IMG/VR virus record: IMGVR_UViG_3300042475_003740
Span: 1 to 60,277 of that record
From: a virus
Length of the DNA stretch: 60,277 bases
Reading direction: 5' to 3' (one strand)
Numbering within the stretch: the first letter of the stretch is position 1; each line of letters starts with the position of its first letter. The notes below the pieces were generated by a model. It was not told the DNA's origin and ran no database searches. It saw nothing but the letters and a program-made list of their open reading frames with translations. The position numbers and the translations under genes were made by a program. Shown here piece by piece: positions 6,433 to 58,664 of the stretch.

Positions 6433-6791
6433 CACACCAGCTCCTTGCCGCTCATCGACGGCAGGCCCCACCCGCCGGTCAGGTCACCCGCATCGGCGGC
6501 ATTGCGGAGCACGGCGGCGACCAGCTCAGCCTGGCGGGCCAGTTCGAGGGCGAACTGACGGGGCAGGGGCTGGCCTTCGTCGTGAGCGTTGTCGTTCACT
6601 GCGCTGGCGATCGCCTGTGTGGCGTCAAGCAGGCCCACCAGGAGGGGAACCAGCGGCTCATTCCTGGCCCCAGCCGGCAGGATCACCCACGGGCCGGGGT
6701 TGCGGGGCAGAGCCGCCCGGGCGGCCTGGAGGATCGTGTCGGACAGGGCGCCTTCGCACTGGAGGGCGGGGGCGGGGATGGTGGCGGTCAT
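6432..6791 (-). CDS. hypothetical phage protein
   Basis: A 119-residue, mostly helical soluble protein (MTATIPAPALQCEG...). It begins 8 nt after a degenerate copy of the genome-wide palindrome (6800-6817) and its leader contains ACACCACC, as for other operon-leading genes here. No family recognised. Confidence 0.5.
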   Translation of the reverse strand: MTATIPAPALQCEGALSDTILQAARAALPRNPGPWVILPAGARNEPLVPLLVGLLDATQAIASAVNDNAHDEGQPLPRQFALELARQAELVAAVLRNAADAGDLTGGWGLPSMSGKELV

Positions 6792-6799
6792 GGTGGTGT

Positions 6800-6827: not shown

Positions 6828-7904
6828 TCAGTGGATCTTGCCCCAGTCGACCTGAATGGCCGGGTGCAGGGTGCCGTTGGCGATGGCGGCAGCAACCGAC
6901 GCGGGCGTCATGCCGTTCATTGCGATCGTCAGCTCGCGCTGCAGTTTTCTGGCAAGAGCCTTGCGGGCTTGCTGCACCTTTGCTTCGGCGTCGGCTCGCG
7001 CCCGTCCGGATCGCATCTGCTCGGCTAACCGCTCCGCTTCCCGGCGCTCGGCCTCGGCTGCGCGTCGCTCTGCGTCCTCCTGCGCGTGGCGAGCCGCTTC
7101 GGCCTCCGCCAGTGCCAGCGCCTCACGAGCGGCCGCAGCTTCACGCTCGATCCGTGCCTGTTGCTCAGATGCACGCTGGCGCTCTTCGGCTTCCCGGCGA
7201 ATCCGAGCTTCTTGCTCGATCGCTTGGGCAGCGGCTCGCCGGCGCTCCTGCTCGATCGCTTCCTGGCGGATGCGCTCTTGCCTTTCCTCTTCTTCCCGCC
7301 GGGCCTTTTCGGCTCGCAGGGCCTCCAGCTCGGCACGTTCGGCCTCCTGGGCCCGCAGGGTGTCCCGTAGCCCCAGCAGATGCTCGATCGCTTCCTGCAG
7401 GCGGTTGGCGCCCGCTACAGCGAACTCCTCAAGTGCAGTGGCGTCGATCGCCTCCAACTCCGCCAGCCGTGCTTCCGCCTCGTCGGCGGTGGCGACGCTT
7501 TCGGCTAGCTGAGCGATGCGGTCCAGCACTGCGCGGTGAGCATCGACGCGGGCCTGCTCCTCCGCCTCGATCGCTTTGATCGCGGTTTCGTGAGGCTCGA
7601 TCAATCCCGCCACGGATGCCTCAAGGGTTTTCGCCGCTTCGTCAACGGCGCGACCGCGTTCCAGGTGAATGGCTTTCGCGTCCTTCCTGGCCCGCTCAAT
7701 GCCGCCCTTCAGTCGCCGCAACTGGGCAACCCAGGAGCGAGCGGCCTTGTTGTCGTGCGTGTCGCGGTAGTTAAAGGCCTTGCTTTCCGCATCCTGCGAT
7801 GCGATGGCGATGTCTGCCGCCAGCGCTTCCCATCGGGTGAGCGCCGTGGTCTCGGCAACGGGAGCGATAAGGCTTTCGGTCGACATGGTGGTAGTTCCGG
7901 TCAT
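6828..7904 (-). CDS. long coiled-coil phage protein, recombination-region type
   Basis: A 358-residue protein starting at the ATG at 7904 behind a strong GGAGG. Residues 20-110 contain a conserved-looking segment (KAFNYRDTHDNKAARSWV, LKGGIERARKDAKAIH, RGRAVDEAAK). Residues about 190-320 are a very long Glu/Arg/Ala coiled coil. The C-terminal 30 residues (MNGMTPASVAAAIANGTLHP) form a small separate motif. From memory this layout is that of a phage protein often found near recT/exonuclease genes, with no proven function. First long gene of the operon ending at dcd. Confidence 0.6.
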   Translation of the reverse strand: MTGTTTMSTESLIAPVAETTALTRWEALAADIAIASQDAESKAFNYRDTHDNKAARSWVAQLRRLKGGIERARKDAKAIHLERGRAVDEAAKTLEASVAGLIEPHETAIKAIEAEEQARVDAHRAVLDRIAQLAESVATADEAEARLAELEAIDATALEEFAVAGANRLQEAIEHLLGLRDTLRAQEAERAELEALRAEKARREEEERQERIRQEAIEQERRRAAAQAIEQEARIRREAEERQRASEQQARIEREAAAAREALALAEAEAARHAQEDAERRAAEAERREAERLAEQMRSGRARADAEAKVQQARKALARKLQRELTIAMNGMTPASVAAAIANGTLHPAIQVDWGKIH

Positions 7905-8101
7905 GATTCCTCCAGTGGTGGACCCCAGAGCCAGCACGGCGGCTCTGAGCAGAACAGATGGTCGGGGCTGGGCTTGCGGCCGGGGGAGCGGCCGCGGATC
8001 GGCTTCACCCAGGCAGTCAAGCGGCTGCTCCAGATGTGCCCCCGGGGCCCGGTGGGCGGCTCGGGGGCTTGGATGCCGGCGGGGTCGTAGAAGTCGCCCA
8101 T
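7901..8101 (-). CDS. hypothetical phage protein
   Basis: A 66-residue protein, MGDFYDPAGIQAPEPPTGPR..., overlapping the following gene by 4 nt. The Trp-rich second half (HIWSSRLTAWVKPI) is the only notable feature. No family recognised. Confidence 0.45.
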   Translation of the reverse strand: MGDFYDPAGIQAPEPPTGPRGHIWSSRLTAWVKPIRGRSPGRKPSPDHLFCSEPPCWLWGPPLEES

Positions 8102-8241
8102 CAGCGCCCTCGCAGCATCGATGGGTTGCGCTCGGCAGCCGTGAGGCACTCCTCGCCAGGGTCGGGCTCGTCGTCGCCCTCGAGCGGGTCTTCATCCCAG
8201 AGCGACTCGAAGTAGCTCGGCTCGTCGTCGTCGAAAGGCAT
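8101..8241 (-). CDS. small acidic protein, first gene of the early minus operon
   Basis: A 46-residue acidic protein beginning MPFDDDEPSYFESLWDEDPL. I choose the ATG at 8241 rather than one at 8271 because the promoter's -10 (8275-8270) lies over the upstream ATG. Its leader is CCACCACCACACCACCACCC with no Shine-Dalgarno. Confidence 0.5.
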   Translation of the reverse strand: MPFDDDEPSYFESLWDEDPLEGDDEPDPGEECLTAAERNPSMLRGR

Positions 8242-8269
8242 GGGTGGTGGTGTGGTGGTGGACTTCTGC

Positions 8270-8297
8270 ATCCTACCGGATCGATTGCGAAACTGCA
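8270..8297 (-). promoter_or_regulatory. palindrome promoter driving the early minus-strand operon
   Basis: Minus strand: palindrome copy TGCAGTTTCGCAATCGAT (8297-8280), spacer CCGG, then -10-like TAGGAT (8275-8270). It has the same geometry as the copies at 31.4, 31.65, 37.2, 37.7, 47.3, 54.8 and 56.3 kb. Confidence 0.6.
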
Positions 8298-8349
8298 CCG
8301 CCCCCCGACGGCTTGCCGATTCCCGGCAGCCTGGATCGGTGGGTTGCTG

Positions 8350-8379
8350 CCCCTGCCGCACTGCGGTGGCAGGGGTTTT
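8350..8379 (+). terminator. intrinsic terminator reading rightward, no upstream + gene
   Basis: CCCCTGCC (8350-8357) pairs with GGCAGGGG (8368-8375) and is followed by TTTT (8376-8379). The direction is +, while all genes nearby are on the minus strand. The gap 8242-8497 otherwise contains only the promoter at 8270-8297 and a GGGGGC-TTCG-GCCCCC hairpin at 8471-8486. Confidence 0.5.
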
Positions 8380-8497
8380 CCTTCCTGTTGCGAAGGGTTA
8401 CACTGATCTCAGCTCACAGGGGTGGTTCCCTGCGGGCCGACACAGCACCTTCGTGTCCTGTGTGGTGGCCGGGGGCTTCGGCCCCCCAACCGCCGCA

Positions 8498-8854
8498 TCA
8501 TCCCTTCGCCCACGGCACCGCATGACCGGCTGCCACCAGGGCATCCGCCAGTAGGACTCCGTCGGCACGACGGATGATCGCCACCCAGCGGCCGAAGCTG
8601 TCCTGGAGCAGCGTTTCGGCGGCGACCGGCTCAGCGGTCAGCCACGCTTCGGCGAATTCCCTGGCGGCCTGGCCGAGCACACGGGAGGCACCCCTCATCT
8701 CCGGGCAGTCGATCCCGGAAACCCGCAGGCGCCAGCGCCAGGTGGGGCGGCAGTTGAAACCAACGTCCCGACTCAAGTTGGCCACAAAAGTATCACCATC
8801 AATCATGCGCTCCATTGCGCAGTCATAGGTAAAAACTGGAACAATTATGCTCAT
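8498..8854 (-). CDS. thermonuclease (SNase) family nuclease
   Basis: A 118-residue protein of the staphylococcal-nuclease fold. Visible motifs are MIDGDTFVAN (residues 17-26), RLRVSGIDCPEMRG (42-55), GQAAREFAEAWL and FGRWVAIIRRADG followed by LADALVAAGHAVPW, all in family order. The catalytic Asp and Arg positions appear intact. SNases cut DNA or RNA using calcium. No signal peptide is seen. It is the last gene of the structural operon; a role in host nucleic acid degradation or superinfection exclusion is inference. Confidence 0.8.
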   Translation of the reverse strand: MSIIVPVFTYDCAMERMIDGDTFVANLSRDVGFNCRPTWRWRLRVSGIDCPEMRGASRVLGQAAREFAEAWLTAEPVAAETLLQDSFGRWVAIIRRADGVLLADALVAAGHAVPWAKG

Positions 8855-8902
8855 GCCATTAACGCCAGCAACGATTCGGCTCGATCTGTTCAGTAATGCT
8901 GC

Positions 8903-9259
8903 TCATGTGGGCAAACCAAGTGGGGAAGAAGGCAGCAGCGATATGAACTCTTCCCACGGCACTACCAGCACCGTTGCCGCCAACTCGTTTGGAAGGTGAC
9001 CAAAAACATGTCGCATGATCCCATAGGGCGGCAGAGCCTCAGTCAAAATATCTGCGCCAATCCCCCAGTGAATTTCGCCTTCCACGGAGACCGGCTGAAG
9101 GCAATGCTGCCAGCCGGGTGGCTTGAAAGTGTCTTGCGCCGCCATGGCTGCTTCGTATGTTGGCTGTGGCACAAGCAACGCGAATGCCTTAGGATTGAAC
9201 TCCTCTACCGGCGGCAGCGCTCCACCACCAGCCGCCAAGATGTCAGCTAGCGTAGTCAT
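8903..9259 (-). CDS. hypothetical protein after the tail fibre
   Basis: A 118-residue protein overlapping the end of the fibre gene by 4 nt. The N terminus (MTTLADILAAGGGALPPVEEFNP) resembles the short helical/Pro linkers of virion-associated proteins. Less GC-rich than the surrounding genome. It could be a fibre chaperone or a small tip protein; no family recognised. Confidence 0.5.
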   Translation of the reverse strand: MTTLADILAAGGGALPPVEEFNPKAFALLVPQPTYEAAMAAQDTFKPPGWQHCLQPVSVEGEIHWGIGADILTEALPPYGIMRHVFGHLPNELAATVLVVPWEEFISLLPSSPLGLPT

Positions 9260-10140
9260 GGAATCACCGCCGCGAAGGCTGTAAATAAATCTGCTCTGCG
9301 TCCATTGAGAGCGGAGACTTGAGAAGCCGTTAAGCCGTCTCCAATATGATAAAATGCAATTCTTGCCGAACTGAACCCAAAGGTTTCAGTAGTTTCTGCG
9401 GAAGCGCCAGTTGCGCTTCCTAGCGCACAAAAAACACCAACCGGATGATCTGAAGGTGTTGAATTGTCTGTATCTAAATTGACATCAAAACTTCCATTGA
9501 TATATCTTGCAGGAGTTTGTCCTGTAACTCTAGTGGCAATATAATGCCCAGAGCCTAAAATGTTAGCTGCAGTAGGACTACCCCAGCCTGCGCCATTGAT
9601 ATAATCGTCACAGGGTAGATAGTGCCGTGTATAAATGCCTGCTCTAAACACACCCATGGGACGACCACTATTCAAATTTGATGTGCCAAACAATCCCAAA
9701 TGTAGATTTTCGCCTGTGGTATATTGGGAGATTTTATAATTAGTGTTAAGGTACTTGCTAAGGCCATCTCCCACCAGCCCAGTCTTGCGGTCGTAATCAC
9801 CGCTGACGAAGTTGTAGTTGGTCGGCGCAGGCATATCTGCTGCGATTGGCGTCAGAGCCCCTGAAAGCGTCCGCGCCCCTGCCATGAGACATCCCGCCTT
9901 GACTGTGCTTGCCGCTTGCGCCAGCACGTTGCTGCTCACCCCTAAACTGCCATCGGCAACCATGCCTTGCAGGCAGATATTGAAGCCATCGGTGACGCCG
10001 CGCTCCAGGCCTTGAGTATTTCCGGCAGTTACATCCGCAGCGGTTACACGATCAAGATAGTCTTGCACATAACTAGGATATAGCAATCGACTGCCGCCTG
10101 ACAGTCCTAAATATCCAATGCGGCCAACGGCGCCGATCAT
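9256..10140 (-). CDS. putative tail fibre / receptor-binding protein
   Basis: A 294-residue protein, beta-rich and Gly/Ser/Thr/Asn-rich in residues 90-260 (NFVSGDYDRKTGLVGDG, LGLFGTSNLNSGRPMG), ending in a helical tail (LTASQVSALNGRRADLFTAF). The middle has the character of a concanavalin/LamG-like binding domain with its usual YHIGDGLTASQV end. DNA between about 9280 and 9760 is clearly AT-richer than its neighbours, typical of recently exchanged receptor-binding genes. Coupled by overlaps to both neighbours. Confidence 0.6.
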   Translation of the reverse strand: MIGAVGRIGYLGLSGGSRLLYPSYVQDYLDRVTAADVTAGNTQGLERGVTDGFNICLQGMVADGSLGVSSNVLAQAASTVKAGCLMAGARTLSGALTPIAADMPAPTNYNFVSGDYDRKTGLVGDGLSKYLNTNYKISQYTTGENLHLGLFGTSNLNSGRPMGVFRAGIYTRHYLPCDDYINGAGWGSPTAANILGSGHYIATRVTGQTPARYINGSFDVNLDTDNSTPSDHPVGVFCALGSATGASAETTETFGFSSARIAFYHIGDGLTASQVSALNGRRADLFTAFAAVIP

Positions 10141-10865
10141 CAGAGCACCGCCGTCACGTTCAAATGGCCATCCGTGGTGTCACGAATCACCCGAAAATGC
10201 GTCACCCCGGCAGGAATCCGCATATGGAATCGCTCACCGGCTTCTAATGCAAGCTGCCCAGCTGCAACGCTAGCCGCGATAACATCGCTAGCTCCAAACC
10301 TTATGAAACACCGACCCGCTGACGAAGCATGAAACATCACCTCTCGGCTGGCGCCAAGCGTTGGCAGCGCCACGGCTGCGGAGCTAGTTGATGTAAATGC
10401 TTGGCGAAGGCTGCTGGCCGTGTCGTAGGCCCTTGTATTGTTGCCGAAGGAATCAGTTGCTGACGCTGTGCTCAGCACCGGCACAGCCCCGCCGCTCAGG
10501 GCCGGCAGCTTGCTATCGATCGACTCCAGCTCCGCCAGCTGCAGCGCCTGGTTGGCGGCCGTCGCGTCGCCACCACCCCCACCACCCCCACCGCCGCCTT
10601 GCCCGTCGTCGTACTCGATGAACAGCCTGTCGCTGTCAGCCATCCCTGCGGTGCTGACCACCAGCGTGAGCACCGGCGAGGCGTAGGTCGCGCTGCTGAG
10701 GTAGCCGTCGCCGCTCTCAGCCGTCGGGTCGAACAGCACCACCCCACGGGTCAGGTTGGTCACCTTGAGGATGTGGCTGATGCTCGCAGGCACCGTGGTG
10801 GCGAACGAGATCGTCCGGTTCACGGCCGAGAACGTCGCGTGAGCTGGTGTGAGTACTCTGCGCAT
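10140..10865 (-). CDS. virion fibre/tip protein with polyglycine linker
   Basis: A 241-residue protein. Residues 1-90 are beta-rich (FSAVNRTISFATTVPASISH, VVLFDPTAESGDGYLSS), followed by a run of ten glycines, a short helix (LQLAELESIDSKLPAL) and a second beta-rich domain. The glycine run is a flexible hinge between two domains. Its place between the decoration and fibre genes suggests a virion surface part. No exact family recognised. Confidence 0.5.
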   Translation of the reverse strand: MRRVLTPAHATFSAVNRTISFATTVPASISHILKVTNLTRGVVLFDPTAESGDGYLSSATYASPVLTLVVSTAGMADSDRLFIEYDDGQGGGGGGGGGGDATAANQALQLAELESIDSKLPALSGGAVPVLSTASATDSFGNNTRAYDTASSLRQAFTSTSSAAVALPTLGASREVMFHASSAGRCFIRFGASDVIAASVAAGQLALEAGERFHMRIPAGVTHFRVIRDTTDGHLNVTAVL

Positions 10866-10885
10866 GGCCGCTACCGTCTACAGGT

Positions 10886-11023
10886 TCAGCTTTCCGGCTT
10901 CGGCGCCACCCGGCGCTTCGGCTCAGGTTTCGGCTCAGGTTTCGGCTCAGTCGCCACAGGCGCACCCATCGCGGCCTGCATCTCCTCAACCGTCACGCCC
11001 TGGGGCATCGCAAACGAGGTCAT
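10886..11023 (-). CDS. short Pro/Lys/Glu-repeat protein
   Basis: A 45-residue protein: a short helical head (MTSFAMPQGVTVEEMQAAMG) followed by a KPEPKPEPK repeat. At DNA level this is a 12-bp direct repeat near 10918-10950. It ends within a copy of the junction motif CCGGAAAGCTGA. A linker or scaffold-like peptide; function unknown. Confidence 0.45.
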   Translation of the reverse strand: MTSFAMPQGVTVEEMQAAMGAPVATEPKPEPKPEPKRRVAPKPES

Positions 11024-11046
11024 TGCTCGATCCTCAGAAATGTTGA

Positions 11047-11064
11047 GGGGCCCCGAAGGGCCCC
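11047..11064 (-). terminator. GC hairpin after the decoration gene
   Basis: GGGGCCC and GGGCCCC form a 7-bp stem with a TTCG loop on the minus strand, just after the stop of 11073-11531. There is only a weak T tract behind it, so it may slow transcription or protect the 3' end rather than terminate strongly. Confidence 0.4.
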
Positions 11065-11072
11065 GGTGGTGA

Positions 11073-11531
11073 TCAGTTCGCAACCTGCAGGCTGATCGTG
11101 TTCACGCCGGCAGGGGCGTTGGCATCGGCGCCAGCGTTGGCGCGGATCGCCACCACGCGCACGTCACCCGAGGTGATCGAGGCGCCGGTGGCAGCCAGCG
11201 CACGTACCTGCGCACCGCTCAGCGCGATCTCCTGGATGCCGGGGGCACAGGTGACCAGGGCGATGGTGGCGTAGTGGCTGTTGTTCACGGTCCCCCCTTC
11301 GGGGACGTGAGCCACCTGGACGGTGTACTGGCCGGCAGCGCTGGCATTGCCGTGCGCGACCAGCTTGAAGGTGTCCTGAGCCTCAAGGCGAGTGTTCAGG
11401 ATCTGGGCAGCACCCGTACGGGTGCCAGCGGCGCGGCCTCGAGCGCCAGCAGCGACAGCACCCACCAGGACGGTGGCTGCGTCGATCAGGTAGCCCCTGC
11501 GGGGGGCGAGGCCGGTGGAGCGAGCTCCCAT
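11073..11531 (-). CDS. putative capsid decoration protein
   Basis: A 152-residue Ala/Gly/Val-rich, low-charge protein with beta-strand-like segments (AGQYTVQVAHVPEGGTV, GASITSGDVRVVAIRANAG). It sits directly downstream of the major capsid gene, as decoration or capsid-stabilising proteins usually do. Assignment is by position and composition. Confidence 0.5.
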   Translation of the reverse strand: MGARSTGLAPRRGYLIDAATVLVGAVAAGARGRAAGTRTGAAQILNTRLEAQDTFKLVAHGNASAAGQYTVQVAHVPEGGTVNNSHYATIALVTCAPGIQEIALSGAQVRALAATGASITSGDVRVVAIRANAGADANAPAGVNTISLQVAN

Positions 11532-13395: not shown

Positions 13396-13442
13396 GGCAT
13401 CACGCCGAATTGCCCCGTAGTTTTCCGATCGCTTCTCGGTGG

Positions 13443-15489: not shown

Positions 15490-15529
15490 GTTTCCTGCTG
15501 CTCTGCTTGTCGCCTAGCTTTCCGTGCGC

Positions 15530-25548: not shown

Positions 25549-25769
25549 GGTGCCGGAGGTGGTGGGGGTGCCTCAGGTTTCCGGCTGTCAGCGGTGGGCC
25601 CGCATGTACCCCAACCATCAGCCGCCGCGACGGTCTCCCCCCGCGCGAACGCCTCGATCACCCAGCTACCGGTGCCGATCGGCACACCGGTGCGGAAGTT
25701 TGCGGGCGCCGCCACCGGCTGGGGGATCAGCAGCCGCAGGTTGGCGTAGGGGGCGAAGTCGGTGGGCAT
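25473..25769 (-). pseudogene. truncated duplicate of the 27233-27721 / 26724-27236 gene pair
   Basis: The first 45 codons (MPTDFAPYANLRLLIPQPVA...) are almost identical in DNA to the start of the gene at 27721. The sequence then jumps to the last nine codons of the neighbouring gp10-like gene (WLGYMRAHR plus stop at 25590-25617, in another frame) and to the same junction motif that follows the intact copy. The frame therefore runs on into unrelated residues and into the chaperone start. It is the scar of a duplication with an internal deletion; the AUG is still coupled to the stop at 25769. Confidence 0.7.
25570..25584 (-). repeat. junction motif copy
   Basis: CCGGAAACCTGAGGC (minus strand), identical to the copy at 26706-26720; together they bracket the basic-protein gene 25769-26686 and the truncated duplicate. 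Confidence 0.55.
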
Positions 25770-26705: not shown

Positions 26706-26720
26706 GCCTCAGGTTTCCGG
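26706..26720 (-). repeat. junction motif copy
   Basis: CCGGAAACCTGAGGC (minus strand) between the gp10-like gene and the basic-protein gene. Confidence 0.55.
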
Positions 26721-27236: not shown

Positions 27237-27721
27237 GCTGCTACCTGCAGCTCGACGGTGATCGCATCGCCGAGCACCTCGCGCAGCTCTGCGCCGATCC
27301 CACCAGGGCCGTAGCTGCCGGCCAGGCCCAGGATGGTGGCCTCCCCCTGCTGACCACTGGCCGCGATCGTCGGCAGGCTGGGCAGCACCCCGAGGAACCC
27401 CCGGCCGCCCATCCCGGTGAGCAGCCCCGCGGGGGCCAGGCCGGTGTCAGTCCAGGTGAATGCCGAGCGGGCCGCCAGCCAGGAGGTGTTTGCCGGCAGG
27501 GTGGCCCAGGCGGTGATGTAGCCGGCGAGGGTGCGCACGCTCGGGTCGATGCTGGGCAGGGGAGCGCCGGGCGTGCCGGCAGCCTGCTGGGCCCGGGCGA
27601 AGCACTCGATCACCCAGCTACCGGTGCCGATCGGCACACCGGTGCGGAAGTTCGCGGGCGCCGCCGCCGGCTGGGGGATCAGCAGCCGCAGGTTGGCGTA
27701 GGGGGCGAAGTCGGTGGGCAT
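27233..27721 (-). CDS. connector-region protein
   Basis: A 162-residue protein (MPTDFAPYANLRLLIPQPAA...). Ala/Gly/Pro-rich with beta segments; the 4-nt overlap with the gp10-like gene and 3-nt gap from the previous gene mark it as a tail-completion or connector component. A nearly identical N-terminal fragment lies at 25769. No family recognised with certainty. Confidence 0.5.
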   Translation of the reverse strand: MPTDFAPYANLRLLIPQPAAAPANFRTGVPIGTGSWVIECFARAQQAAGTPGAPLPSIDPSVRTLAGYITAWATLPANTSWLAARSAFTWTDTGLAPAGLLTGMGGRGFLGVLPSLPTIAASGQQGEATILGLAGSYGPGGIGAELREVLGDAITVELQVAA

Positions 27722-28225: not shown

Positions 28226-28248
28226 CGTCTGGCGCGGGGCGTTGGCTC

Positions 28249-28274
28249 AGGTTTCCGGCCCTCACCGGAAACCT
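28249..28274. repeat. inverted pair of junction motifs between divergent genes
   Basis: AGGTTTCCGG and CCGGAAACCT form a perfect 10-bp inverted repeat with a CCCTCA loop, between the divergent genes starting at 28225 and 28296. Each arm is a core of the CCGGAAASCTNAGSC motif. Confidence 0.65.
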
Positions 28275-28707: not shown

Positions 28708-28722
28708 CCGGAAACCTAAGCC
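28708..28722 (+). repeat. junction motif copy
   Basis: CCGGAAACCTAAGCC directly after the stop of the 28296-28706 cassette, in the same orientation as the copy before it. Confidence 0.55.
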
Positions 28723-31425: not shown

Positions 31426-31453
31426 ACTTATCCGGTCCGGTTGCGCAACCGCA
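31426..31453 (-). promoter_or_regulatory. palindrome promoter for the 31372 operon
   Basis: Minus strand: TGCGGTTGCGCAACCGGA (31453-31436), almost the perfect palindrome, spacer CCGG, hexamer ATAAGT (31431-31426). A TATGCT follows 4 nt later. The leader then forms an ATCAGGC/GCCTGAT hairpin before the CCACC tract. Confidence 0.6.
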
Positions 31454-31648: not shown

Positions 31649-31649
31649 T

Positions 31650-31677
31650 GCAGATGCGCAACTGCATGCCTATTGTG
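31650..31677 (+). promoter_or_regulatory. palindrome promoter for the cyAbrB gene
   Basis: Plus strand: TGCAGATGCGCAACTGCA (31650-31667), spacer TGCC, -10-like TATTGT (31672-31677), 20 nt before the ATG at 31698. Confidence 0.6.
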
Positions 31678-31697: not shown

Positions 31698-32123
31698 ATG
31701 TCTGAAACCACCCCGCTCACCGGCGCCGCGCTGCTTGCTCGTGTCGAGGAGCTGAAGCCTGCGCCCGAATCCGAGGTCGCCATCGCCTGCGGCTACGTGA
31801 GTGAAGCCAGCAAGGCCCGCCTGTCGGCGTTCAAGGATGCCCTGCTCGATGCCCATGGCCTCGGCTTCGGCAAGGCGCCGAAGGCCGCCCGCCGCGGCAA
31901 GCCGTTGTCGTTCTGTGTCACCACCAACGCCAAGTCGGGGAACATCCTCCTCGCCGGTGGCTATGCGGCGCTGATCGGCATCGAGCCCGGCGGTCAGGTA
32001 GTGATCGCCCACCAGGGCAACAGCCTGGTGATCACCCCGGCCGGTGTGGCCGTAGCCGATGAGGCGCCCCTGGTGTGCCCCGCGCCGGCAGCGACCTACG
32101 ACGCGGTGCCGGTGGCGGCTTGA
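31698..32123 (+). CDS. cyAbrB-type transcription regulator
   Basis: A 141-residue member of the cyanobacterial AbrB family, in which the swapped-hairpin AbrB domain is at the C terminus. Visible family features in order: PLTGAALLARVEEL (5-18), EVAIACGYVS (26-35), RLSAFKDALLDAHGL (41-55), then FCVTTNAKSGNILLAGGYAA and IGIEPGGQVVIAHQGNSLVI. In hosts, cyAbrB proteins govern carbon/nitrogen balance and other global programmes. A phage copy could reset host metabolism or control lysogeny (inference). It is on the + strand with its own palindrome promoter. Confidence 0.78.
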   Translation: MSETTPLTGAALLARVEELKPAPESEVAIACGYVSEASKARLSAFKDALLDAHGLGFGKAPKAARRGKPLSFCVTTNAKSGNILLAGGYAALIGIEPGGQVVIAHQGNSLVITPAGVAVADEAPLVCPAPAATYDAVPVAA

Positions 32124-33771: not shown

Positions 33772-33786
33772 GGCTCAGCTTTCCGG
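33772..33786 (-). repeat. junction motif copy at portal stop
   Basis: CCGGAAAGCTGAGCC; the TGA in it is the portal stop codon. Confidence 0.55.
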
Positions 33787-35286: not shown

Positions 35287-35301
35287 GGCTCAGCTTTCCG
35301 G
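35287..35301 (-). repeat. junction motif copy before portal
   Basis: CCGGAAAGCTGAGCC, identical to the copy at the portal stop, so the portal gene is bracketed by two direct copies. Confidence 0.55.
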
Positions 35302-37734: not shown

Positions 37735-37762
37735 AGCATACCGATACGGTTGCGAAACTGCA
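37735..37762 (-). promoter_or_regulatory. palindrome promoter for 37210-37713
   Basis: Minus strand: TGCAGTTTCGCAACCGTA (37762-37745), spacer TCGG, -10-like TATGCT (37740-37735), leader CCACCACCACACC before the ATG. It lies within 6 nt of the end of the sigma-factor gene. Confidence 0.65.
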
Positions 37763-37767
37763 CCGGT

Positions 37768-38619
37768 TCAGGCCACCAGCAGACCCAGCTGCAGCGCTGC
37801 CGCATCCAGTGCCTTCCGGCTGCGACCGCGGGGGCGGCGGGGCTCCAGGCCCTTGCGATCGAGGAACTCCTGCTCCAGCCGCTCACGGTCGGCCTTTCGC
37901 TCAGCGGCGCTCACATCCCGCACGCGCACCGCCAACGGACCCACAGCCACCAGCACCTCCGATGGCCGACGGCCCTGCAGGTGATGCTGCAAGCACCGGT
38001 GAAACTGCTGCATCGGCCCGGCGGGGTAGGCGCGGCGGCGGGGGGCCTCCCACCAGGCCAGCAGGGTGATGCGGTCGCCGTGGTGGATGCCGGCCCAGGC
38101 CTGCCGCACCATGGCCTGCAGCGGCGCCAGGCGGTTCACCTCCGGGTCAGCCTGTTTGTAGCCATCGGCGCCGTGGATGTCGTCGAGGTTGGAGGTGCCG
38201 CACATGGCGGCCAGCATCTCCTGCAGCTCACCGGGGCTCAGCCCGCACTGCTCCGCAACGTCCTGGGCGCTGCAGTCGGGATCAGCCATCAGCCGCTGCA
38301 CCTTCCCCCACTGCTCCCGCCAGCGACTGGGGAACTTGATGGCGTGGCCCCGGTCGCGGAACCAGTGGAGGATTTCCCCCGCGATGAACGGCACCACGAA
38401 GGTGGATAGCCGGTAGGGGCGACCGTTGGCGGGTTTGAGCCGATCGGGGTCGTACCGGCGGCAGCCGCGGATGAGCCCCACATAGGCGATGGCCTCGAGG
38501 TCGTCGTAGGGCTGGCCGGTGCGACGGTGAAACTTCCACGCCTGCTGCCGCGCCAGGCCCAGGTTGGCGGTGACCAGGGCCTCGCTGTGTTCGGTGGGGG
38601 CGGGGAAGGTGGCGGTCAT
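37768..38619 (-). CDS. phage-encoded sigma-70 family factor lacking a clear region 4
   Basis: A 283-residue RNA polymerase sigma factor. Region 2 is clear at residues about 12-95: LVTANLGLARQQAWKFHRRT, DLEAIAYVGLIRGCRRYDPD, YRLSTFVVPFIAGEILHWFR. A region-3-like HTH follows at about 100-150 (REQWGKVQRLMADPDCSAQD, GLSPGELQEMLAAM). The remaining 130 residues are basic and show no region-4 HTH, the part that reads the -35 box. Such a factor would recognise mainly the -10 side. It is encoded in the middle of the minus-strand operon and could direct late or lysogenic genes. Confidence 0.75.
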   Translation of the reverse strand: MTATFPAPTEHSEALVTANLGLARQQAWKFHRRTGQPYDDLEAIAYVGLIRGCRRYDPDRLKPANGRPYRLSTFVVPFIAGEILHWFRDRGHAIKFPSRWREQWGKVQRLMADPDCSAQDVAEQCGLSPGELQEMLAAMCGTSNLDDIHGADGYKQADPEVNRLAPLQAMVRQAWAGIHHGDRITLLAWWEAPRRRAYPAGPMQQFHRCLQHHLQGRRPSEVLVAVGPLAVRVRDVSAAERKADRERLEQEFLDRKGLEPRRPRGRSRKALDAAALQLGLLVA

Positions 38620-38626
38620 GGGTGGG

Positions 38627-38944: not shown

Positions 38945-38974
38945 GGGTTCAGGTGGGGGCGAGGAAGGTGGCGG

Positions 38975-39349
38975 TCATGGCAGCTGCTCCCGCTCAGCAG
39001 CAGAGCGACGCGGCAACTGCTCGAGGTCGCCGTTCCAGACAGGCCTGGGCACCACCCGCAGCGGTGCTGGCCAGAAGCCGTGGCGAAGAGGAAAGGCTAT
39101 TTCGTAGTGGTAGGACGTTGAGATCCTGAACCACCGAATACCAAGGAACAAGTAACTGTCACTGCATGGGTCCGGCCGCCAATAAAAACCGCCGAACCAG
39201 AACCACGACGATAGATGCCTATTTCTGATCACTTCGCCGGTCTTCGGGTTGCAGGAGCTCACGTGCAGGATCCGGCGGCCGGTCGCGTCGTAGACCTTGG
39301 CGCCGAAATCAAAGGTGCCCCAGGACTCCTTGGGGTAGAGCATGGTCAT
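38975..39349 (-). CDS. aromatic-rich hypothetical protein
   Basis: A 124-residue protein with many Trp/Phe/Tyr residues (SSWFWFGGFYWRPDPCSDSY). ATG at 39349 overlaps the upstream stop (TGATG). It shares a RWFR...RHG core with 38627-38944, suggesting distant paralogues. Confidence 0.5.
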   Translation of the reverse strand: MTMLYPKESWGTFDFGAKVYDATGRRILHVSSCNPKTGEVIRNRHLSSWFWFGGFYWRPDPCSDSYLFLGIRWFRISTSYHYEIAFPLRHGFWPAPLRVVPRPVWNGDLEQLPRRSAAEREQLP

Positions 39350-54766: not shown

Positions 54767-54802
54767 GGGTTCGCGGCGTGTTCCCCCAGCTTTCCGGTCG
54801 GC

Positions 54803-56268: not shown

Positions 56269-56296
56269 TGCGGTTTTGCAACCGCTACGGTATGAT
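56269..56296 (+). promoter_or_regulatory. palindrome promoter for the ATPase-SSB-methylase operon
   Basis: Plus strand: TGCGGTTTTGCAACCGCT (56269-56286), spacer ACGG, -10 TATGAT (56291-56296), leader CCACCACCCACCACCACC to the ATG at 56323. A direct TTGCA repeat lies just upstream (56240-56254). Confidence 0.7.
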
Positions 56297-58204: not shown

Positions 58205-58401
58205 CCCATCGCCCTGATCCCATGACCCTGAACCTGCCGAACTTCCGCCAGCCCCCTACACCCGCCGCCTACCGGCTGGTGCCACTGGGCTATCTGCAGC
58301 AGCTCGATCGGCGGCTGGCCACCATGCGCATCCTGCTGTGGGCGGTGCTGGCGTCTGTTGCCTTTGTTGCCTTGCTCACCTTGGTGGTGGGGGTGAAATG
58401 A
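58201..58401 (+). CDS. small protein with C-terminal membrane helix
   Basis: A 66-residue protein with a GTG start in a GTGA overlap; an ATG at 58222 is possible. C-terminal membrane helix ILLWAVLASVAFVALLTLVV. A third small membrane protein of this genome. Function unknown. Confidence 0.45.
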   Translation: MTHRPDPMTLNLPNFRQPPTPAAYRLVPLGYLQQLDRRLATMRILLWAVLASVAFVALLTLVVGVK

Positions 58402-58664
58402 CAGCCATCCGAATCCCCATTCGTCGTTTCGTTGCCCTGCGGCCTGCGGTTCGTGATCGCACCCTGCTCGACTACCTCGATTTGGCAGTGCTGGCGCCTG
58501 AGCCTGGCCGCCTGCGCACTGACGAACTGTGCAAGCGCTGGCGCTGTAGCCAGCCCACCGTCAGCCGCCGGCTGGCAGCGGTCAACGCGGCGGGCCTTGC
58601 TGAGATCAGCAATGGCCACGGCGCCTACGCCGTCCACTGGCTCGATCGGTTGGAGGTGGCGTGA
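58398..58664 (+). CDS. small winged-helix DNA-binding protein
   Basis: An 88-residue protein: LDYLDLAVLAPEPGRLRTDE then LCKRWRCSQPTVSRRLAAVN is a clear HTH with recognition helix, followed by a strand pair (GLAEISNGHGAYAVHW) as wing. A regulator or replication-associated DNA-binding protein. Coupled to both neighbours. Confidence 0.6.
   Translation: MTAIRIPIRRFVALRPAVRDRTLLDYLDLAVLAPEPGRLRTDELCKRWRCSQPTVSRRLAAVNAAGLAEISNGHGAYAVHWLDRLEVA

Follow-up and report, generated by a model that had tools for sequence, protein, structure and literature searches.

How does a phage sigma factor contact its promoters if no region 4, the part which reads the -35 box, can be recognised in it? The question is raised by a gene in an IMG/VR virus record of 60,277 bases (G000); this entire record is called the window below. 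The sequence-only reading of the locus had seen a sigma factor with regions 2 and 3 but without visible region 4. It had proposed a two-component promoter system in which the sigma recognises the -10 together with its leading CGG, and the -35 contacts are taken over by a protein that binds the palindrome. The gene (P0001) is located on the minus strand (Table 1); the plus strand of 37768-38619 has an in-frame stop.

PHROG and Pfam scans of part of the window ORFs identified structural and packaging genes (large terminase, portal, head, scaffold, tail), an integrase and a set of replication and nucleotide genes (primase, helicase, Sak4-like protein, RusA, SSB, dCTP deaminase). Most of the small ORFs submitted got no assignment. 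The simple gene caller missed some genes and set some starts too short, e.g. the gene at 6828 was begun at 7904, not at 8195. The sigma gene sits downstream of the terminase with a few small ORFs in between; in S-CRES1, S-CBS2 and P-SS2 it directly follows the large terminase. Forty-six related loci were collected, 25 of which constitute alignment A1. Because the nearest annotated relatives are in the cyanophages P-SS2, S-CBS2 and S-CRES1-3, the host of the window phage is probably a cyanobacterium.

Table 1. Coordinates in the window of the sigma gene, its parts, putative late promoters and palindromes.
Feature	Position	Strand	Basis
Sigma factor gene, 283 aa (P0001)	37768..38619	-	Pfam, PHROG, 46 relatives
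Sigma region 2, residues 13-93	38341..38583	-	Pfam Sigma70_r2 15-91; structural matches to sigma domain 2
Region 3-like helices, residues 94-145	38185..38340	-	AF2 helices; weak generic HTH matches; Sigma70_r3 in 2/25 relatives
Conserved helical domain at the position of region 4, residues 164-225	37945..38130	-	Predicted models; no sequence match
Variable linker, residues 226-276, with an insertion specific to the window phage	37792..37944	-	Alignment A1, conservation profile
Putative beta-clamp-binding motif QLGLL, residues 277-281, 2 residues before the C-terminus	37777..37791	-	Conservation
Putative late promoter, 21 nt before start 10865	10887..10895	-	
Weaker putative late promoter GGAAAACTA, before scaffold gene start 13395 (script: 13403)	13418..13426	-	Scaffold by PHROG
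Putative late promoter, 25 nt before start 15489	15515..15523	-	
Putative late promoter GGAAACCTG (in CCGGAAACCTGAGGC), 25 nt before start 25548	25574..25582	-	
Putative late promoter, 23 nt before start 26686	26710..26718	-	
Putative late promoter, 22 nt before start 28225	28248..28256	-	
Putative late promoter, 24 nt before ORF start 28743	28710..28718	+	
Putative late promoter, 25 nt before start 33750	33776..33784	-	
Putative late promoter, 28 nt before portal gene start 35262	35291..35299	-	Portal by PHROG
Putative late promoter, 20 nt before start 54766, adjoining a palindrome	54787..54795	-	
Palindrome before AbrB-like gene 31698-32123; second palindrome 31436-31453	31649..31666	+	
Palindrome promoter before gene starting 37713; its -10 (GGTATGCTG) also fits the late motif	37745..37762	-	
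Palindrome at the 56.3 kb promoter, which is of a separate class; TATGAT at 56291-56296	56269..56286	+	

The sigma factor and the domain in the place of region 4

Pfam Sigma70_r2 matched residues 15-91 of the window sigma with 25.5 bits (cut-off 24) and was found in 23 of the 25 aligned relatives at E up to 1. PHROG sigma families matched residues 14-174, and structure comparison returned sigma domain 2, e.g. 8b3z_D (Z 13.3, rmsd 1.7, 77 aligned). Region 3 is weak. Pfam gave only generic HTH families at residues 107-142, and Sigma70_r3 was detected in 2 of the 25 relatives at the same threshold. The AF2 model (25 sequences; mean pLDDT 77.5, pTM 0.37) places helices at 98-111, 118-124 and 129-149. 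Of the two regions, it is region 2 that is clear. Several host genomes (Cyanobium, Synechococcus, Vulcanococcus and related ones; L146-L160) carry sigma-like ORFs of their own with regions 2-3 only; most of them end in a conserved peptide of the DACSVRVVAF type and leave no room for a region 4.

Sigma70_r4 was found neither in the window sigma nor in any of the 25 relatives (Pfam, E up to 1). Because of this result the absence of a recognisable region 4 is family-wide, and here the earlier observation holds for the sigma family. In its place the predicted models have a helical domain with helices at 165-177, 180-191, 200-214 and 219-225, followed by a poorly ordered stretch and a last helix at 268-277. 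Residues 156-230 modelled alone reached a pLDDT of 85.0. In the predicted model there is no helix at 192-199, the place expected for the first HTH helix. Could this be a cryptic region 4? Structure searches with the full model were dominated by domain 2; with the isolated domain, Foldseek yielded no match at E up to 0.001, and 3 of 7 weak matches hold a sigma region 4. In VIA-align the top match was the -35-binding domain of SigL (3hug_C, Z 5.8, rmsd 4.0, 62 aligned), followed by region 4 of E. coli sigma-70 (Z 3.8 and 3.6), values which may mean merely a common helix arrangement. Alignment of the domain with four phage region-4 sequences by hhalign gave a probability of 0.4%, and a PDB sequence profile search gave no sigma match. 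On these grounds an intact cryptic region 4 appears improbable. In the predicted models the resemblance of residues 156-230 to the sigma-4 fold is at best weak, and the first HTH helix is missing; residues 164-225 probably are an eroded region 4 without this helix.

Palindrome promoters

The palindrome promoters consist of a palindrome, 4 nt and TANNNT. Nine sites in the window have at most 2 mismatches to TGCRGWTNCGNAWCYGCA, compared to about 0.3 expected from a second-order Markov model; the consensus was itself drawn from some of these nine sites. A similar pattern was searched in 25 records and gave 65 strand-hits versus 2 for the reversed pattern. A count made before dereplication gave 65 palindromes versus 5.3 expected. 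Dereplication left 51 palindromes with 102 sides. TANNNT was located exactly 4 nt outside on 26 sides (about 0.5 expected for each offset), 5 nt outside on 6 sides and at 9-13 nt on 8 sides. The offset-4 elements were preceded by GG in 15 and by GC in 9 cases. Some palindromes have TANNNT on both sides (window 47302, L009 3865, L013 2280). The palindromic promoters described in the sequence-only reading are thus real, and its claim of a -10-type element preceded by CGG is supported. With at most 1 mismatch, palindromes occurred in 10 of the 25 sigma-bearing records and were absent from 15; none was found in G003, G006, G007, G016, G017, S-CRES1, S-CBS2 and P-SS2. G003 carries a sigma of the window clade; when a looser consensus was used, a single palindrome appeared in L033, a part of this record.

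Which polymerase may use these promoters? TANNNT together with a partial -35 located 17 nt upstream suggests the host primary sigma and an overlapping operator. We consider it rather probable that the palindromes are operators of a phage regulator over host SigA promoters, composed of a -35 like NTGCAG, a 17-bp spacer and TANNNT as -10. The spacing of TANNNT is fixed, the left palindrome edge is 17 nt away from it (by eye), and some palindromes have the element on both sides. The -35 match is partial, and the palindrome-binding protein is a candidate only. The best candidate is the AbrB-like protein encoded at 31698-32123 on the plus strand (PF14250, 28.8 bits, cut-off 25), with its gene flanked by two palindromes (31436 and 31649). 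A winged-HTH protein of 88 aa (58398-58661, plus strand; MarR_2-like below the cut-off) is another possible regulator in the window. The arrangement resembles operator/promoter regions of temperate phages: the phage has an integrase, and its palindromes overlap intergenic promoters between -35 and -10. It differs in the regulator, here an AbrB-like candidate. The operator reading covers the palindromes only and is compatible with a clamp-tethered sigma as proposed below. In this reading the palindrome promoters are a class separate from those of the sigma, probably early or repressible.

The C-terminal tail and sliding clamps

The most conserved residue in the tail of the sigma is Q277 (conservation profile). 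The protein ends in QLGLL followed by VA. According to the available portions of a 2024 review, the canonical beta-clamp-binding motif is Q-phi-x-[LM]-[FL], QLDLF is the strongest clamp-binding pentapeptide, and polymerases II and IV carry such motifs C-terminally (PMC11139829). As a sequence motif, QLGLL at residues 277-281 fits this definition, with the preferred Phe missing. In the sister clade L100-L106, which is 37-40% identical to the window sigma where the C-terminal domain is present, complete members have QLDLF as their very last residues. In the S-CRES clade the ending is Q[GPAS][SNCL]LF, with QGSLF, QPSLF, QASLF and QSSLF as examples.

The tails were counted in 81 complete sigma ORFs, dereplicated to 49; this set excludes ORFs truncated at a contig end as well as the gene of S-CBS2, the frame of which is broken as annotated. 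Qxx[LMI][FLIMV] was present within the last 12 residues in 40 of the 49 ORFs; shuffled tails averaged 1.49 and never exceeded 7 over 2000 trials. Fifteen fit the canonical motif, 25 the relaxed form and nine neither. Among these nine, L010, L025, L026 and L089 have degenerate or displaced forms, and in L040, L118, L120, L124 and P-SS2 no form of the motif is present. In S-CBS2 the annotated sigma gene lacks the QGSLF end; these letters are present in another frame just downstream (L050 3500-3760).

Among ORFs of at least 60 aa in six-frame translations, the sigma was the sole one with a clamp-like tail in S-CRES1 (1 of 237) and in G006 (1 of 195). G003 had two such ORFs, the sigma among them; in the window the only further one is a methyltransferase ORF. 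A 1192-aa ORF of G003 (7853-11431, in the join of L033 and L138) ends in QSSLFG, another clamp-like tail. P-SS2 had no such ORF among 289 in 100 of its 107.5 kb; this ruled out a gp33-like clamp-tailed partner in the part covered.

Which clamp might be bound? We searched 31 of the records behind the sigma loci, selected on record length, for the beta clamp (PF02767) and found it in 8 (4 of 13 and 4 of 18). Some of these eight are near-duplicates, as L103, L104 and L106 have nearly the same sigma. The clamp of G003, the sole one checked in full, is encoded next to SSB; all three beta domains are present, and solved beta clamps were matched at E about 1e-51. The PF02767 search detected no phage-encoded clamp in the window. 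PolA, PolIII-alpha and PolB families were absent from the 13 records searched, four of which bear a clamp. Since DnaN is present where no DNA polymerase family was found, the clamp may be a transcription activator; in some relatives DnaN may serve in this role rather than for an own polymerase. In a phage collection, 127 records contained beta-clamp relatives; Arthrobacter phages made up 53 of these records, and in some cases an HTH gene lay alongside the clamp gene.

From these endings we infer that the C-terminal peptide of the sigma binds the beta clamp. Alternatively, the peptide may bind a different partner, such as RNA polymerase, an anti-sigma or a co-activator, or simply end a helix, and the late sigma would be clamp-free. 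In line with this, the gene persists without the peptide in P-SS2 and in the L118/L120/L124 group, and the AF2 helix 268-277 runs up to the motif. We regard this as unlikely, considering that three clades converge on QLDLF, QGSLF and QLGLL where a variable linker ends and that DnaN occurs in 8 of 31 records with none of the polymerase families in the 13 records searched.

A putative promoter motif that tracks with the sigma

In the window, CCGGAAA[CG]CTGAG is repeated ahead of several late genes; it was found by eye and then counted. The core CCGGAAA[CG]CTG has nine sites versus 0.05 expected. Of the 54 non-redundant CGGAAA[CG]CT sites in the window and its clade, 44 precede a start codon by 12-32 nt, 40 of them by 20-26 nt. 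All upstream columns between -50 and -2 stayed at or below 0.28 bits; no -35 element is conserved. Across clades the form is GGWANNCT[A/G]. GGWANNCTR sites at 14-30 nt before starts numbered 13 in the window (shuffle mean 2.8, maximum 7), 21 in S-CRES1 (3.0, 7), 18 in P-SS2 (2.9, 6) and 7 in G006 (1.3, 3). The motif is thus enriched in four sigma-bearing phage lineages, with many of the sites before late genes. G004 with 8 sites was only just above the shuffles (2.7, 7), and G003 with 7 was within their range (2.8, 10). Two cyanophages served as controls: S-LBS1, in which the annotated sigma is RpoD-like, had no site (shuffle mean 1.2), and the first 50 kb of S-CBS4, with no sigma annotated there, had one (2.2).

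An unsupervised search for k-mers enriched 15-45 nt before starts returned GNANCCTA in S-CRES1 (14 genes versus 0.9 expected), GGAAAANT and CGGGAAAA in G006, and GGAAANCT in G003 and G004. In P-SS2, GGAANNCT was enriched before starts (18 genes versus 1.6 expected). S-LBS1 had no such k-mer, and in the window itself this test did not recover the motif. In S-CRES1, 17 of the 23 sites at 14-40 nt before a start are in the late part of the genome (p = 0.04), among them sites preceding gp70 and the tape measure, spike, endosialidase-chaperone and lysozyme genes; the motif is not confined to late genes.

These positions suggest GGWANNCTR as a putative promoter read by this sigma. It could instead be an operator or an mRNA element, since the evidence for the motif is its position. 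We consider this improbable: it is mostly 20-26 nt away from the start codon, too far for a ribosome-binding site, and it is enriched in the sigma-bearing lineages, not in the two control phages.

Does the sigma share its promoters with a palindrome-binding protein, as the sequence-only reading had it? The protein would provide the upstream contacts at the same promoters at which the sigma reads a -10 preceded by CGG. The fixed 4-nt offset of TANNNT on 26 of 102 sides, 15 of the 26 with GG in front, and the window site at 37742, which fits both motifs, agree with such a partnership. However, palindromes are absent from 15 of 25 records, including the motif-bearing S-CRES1, P-SS2 and G006 (at most 1 mismatch). 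GGWANNCT is in register with a palindrome in only 2 cases, and TANNNT also occurs 9-13 nt away on 8 sides. Further, this TANNNT resembles the -10 of the primary sigma, GGWANNCTR sites keep a constant distance to start codons and have neither palindrome nor -35, and the sigma possesses a candidate substitute for -35 contacts of its own, the conserved clamp-binding-like C-terminus. Because co-occurrence with the sigma is inconsistent and the motif is rarely in register, the palindrome was set aside as a -35 substitute. We think it very unlikely that a palindrome-binding protein is the partner of this sigma. Of the two-component proposal, a sigma without a working -35-reading domain is retained; a palindrome-binding protein in place of the -35 contacts is not.

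We consider it likely that the gene encodes a late sigma which is tethered to the replication sliding clamp instead of contacting a -35 element, similar to T4 gp55, yet with a clamp of the bacterial type. A group-3-type sigma would serve the late genes of the phage. Through regions 2 and 3 it would be loaded on the core RNA polymerase of the host and would recognise promoters that have only a -10 element, (C)GGWANNCT[A/G] (CGGAAA[C/G]CTGAG in the window clade), about 20-26 nt upstream of the start codon. The domain that reads the -35 would have decayed, with no -35 element conserved. The flexible linker would present QLGLL and thus tether the holoenzyme to a beta sliding clamp on the phage DNA. 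The clamp would be that of the host in the window phage and the phage's own DnaN in several relatives. These promoters would fire efficiently only where replication has left clamps. With such a clamp-hook-like tail, late genes may be switched on by replication itself; as judged from the sequences, clamp binding would be the activating step. A counterexample to a general need for the tail is P-SS2, which has 18 motif sites and a sigma without a clamp-like tail. In some lineages -35-less recognition thus does without the tail, and recognition and tethering are separable. That the peptide titrates or blocks the host replication clamp or brings the sigma to forks would fit the same sequences, and clamp-binding peptides are studied as inhibitors according to the accessible part of the review (PMC11139829), but we give this little credence because several phages encode a clamp with no polymerase of their own found in those searched, and the peptide sits on a sigma without recognisable region 4 beside -35-less promoters.

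In T4, late promoters have no -35 element. In the available parts of two papers, T4 gp55 is described as a region-2 domain with a C-terminal clamp-binding motif on a divergent linker, T4 late promoters as short, and the gp45 clamp as speeding promoter opening (PMC7892883, PMC2988020). The cyanophage system resembles that of T4 (gp55, gp33, gp45) in a region-2 sigma, no -35 recognition and short -10-only promoters, here putative; the likeness in region 2 is judged from Pfam Sigma70_r2 matches. As in gp55, a clamp motif is placed C-terminally on a variable linker, here as a sequence motif in 40 of 49 relatives. In contrast to T4, these cyanophages are siphovirus-like, with no DNA polymerase family found in 13 records, and their sigma has retained region 3-like helices along with a probable remnant domain. 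Its peptide fits the motif for bacterial beta clamps. The clamp itself would be the host's or DnaN, with none encoded in the window by the PF02767 search and DnaN in 8 of 31 records. The motif is GGWANNCTR, not the T4 late sequence. We give an even chance to the proposition that replication-coupled late transcription arose here independently of T4, from a group-3-derived sigma which traded its -35 domain for a tail fitting a cellular-type clamp.

Region 2 of the window sigma resembles solved group 3 factors (SigF/SigB/sigma-28-like), and the relatives in S-CBS2, S-CRES1 and P-SS2 are annotated as SigF or type III RpoS. The -10 of the late motif presumably recalls the sigma-28/SigF types. Unlike group 3 members, the window sigma has no recognisable region 4 or -35 element and has a C-terminal clamp-like peptide. 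On sequence grounds we filed the clade as derived from group 3, not as a full member. ORF003 of P-SS2, annotated as 'type III RNAP sigma factor', is homologous (35.8% over residues 19-183), short and located beside terminase genes in a genome with the same promoter motif; it differs in being shorter than the window sigma and in lacking the clamp-like tail. In its available portions, the P-SS2 paper of 2009 states that the group 3 sigma likely reads regulon-specific sequences and proposes nothing further (PMC2784084). A search of the open-licence literature, with subscription papers and preprints outside its range, returned no report of a sigma with a bacterial beta-clamp motif or of this promoter code. 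If the proposal is true, siphovirus-like phages would show that replication-coupled late transcription can be built from host components around a clamp of the bacterial type. The presence of a clamp in phages in which no polymerase was detected would have a possible explanation, and a widespread cyanophage group would have a testable promoter code.

Two repeats were also observed in the window. Near-identical stretches surround the start codons of unrelated genes including that of the sigma (6770-6794, 38598-38622 and 38957-38981), and the late region contains a 130-nt direct repeat, 95% identical, at 25640-25769 and 27592-27721.
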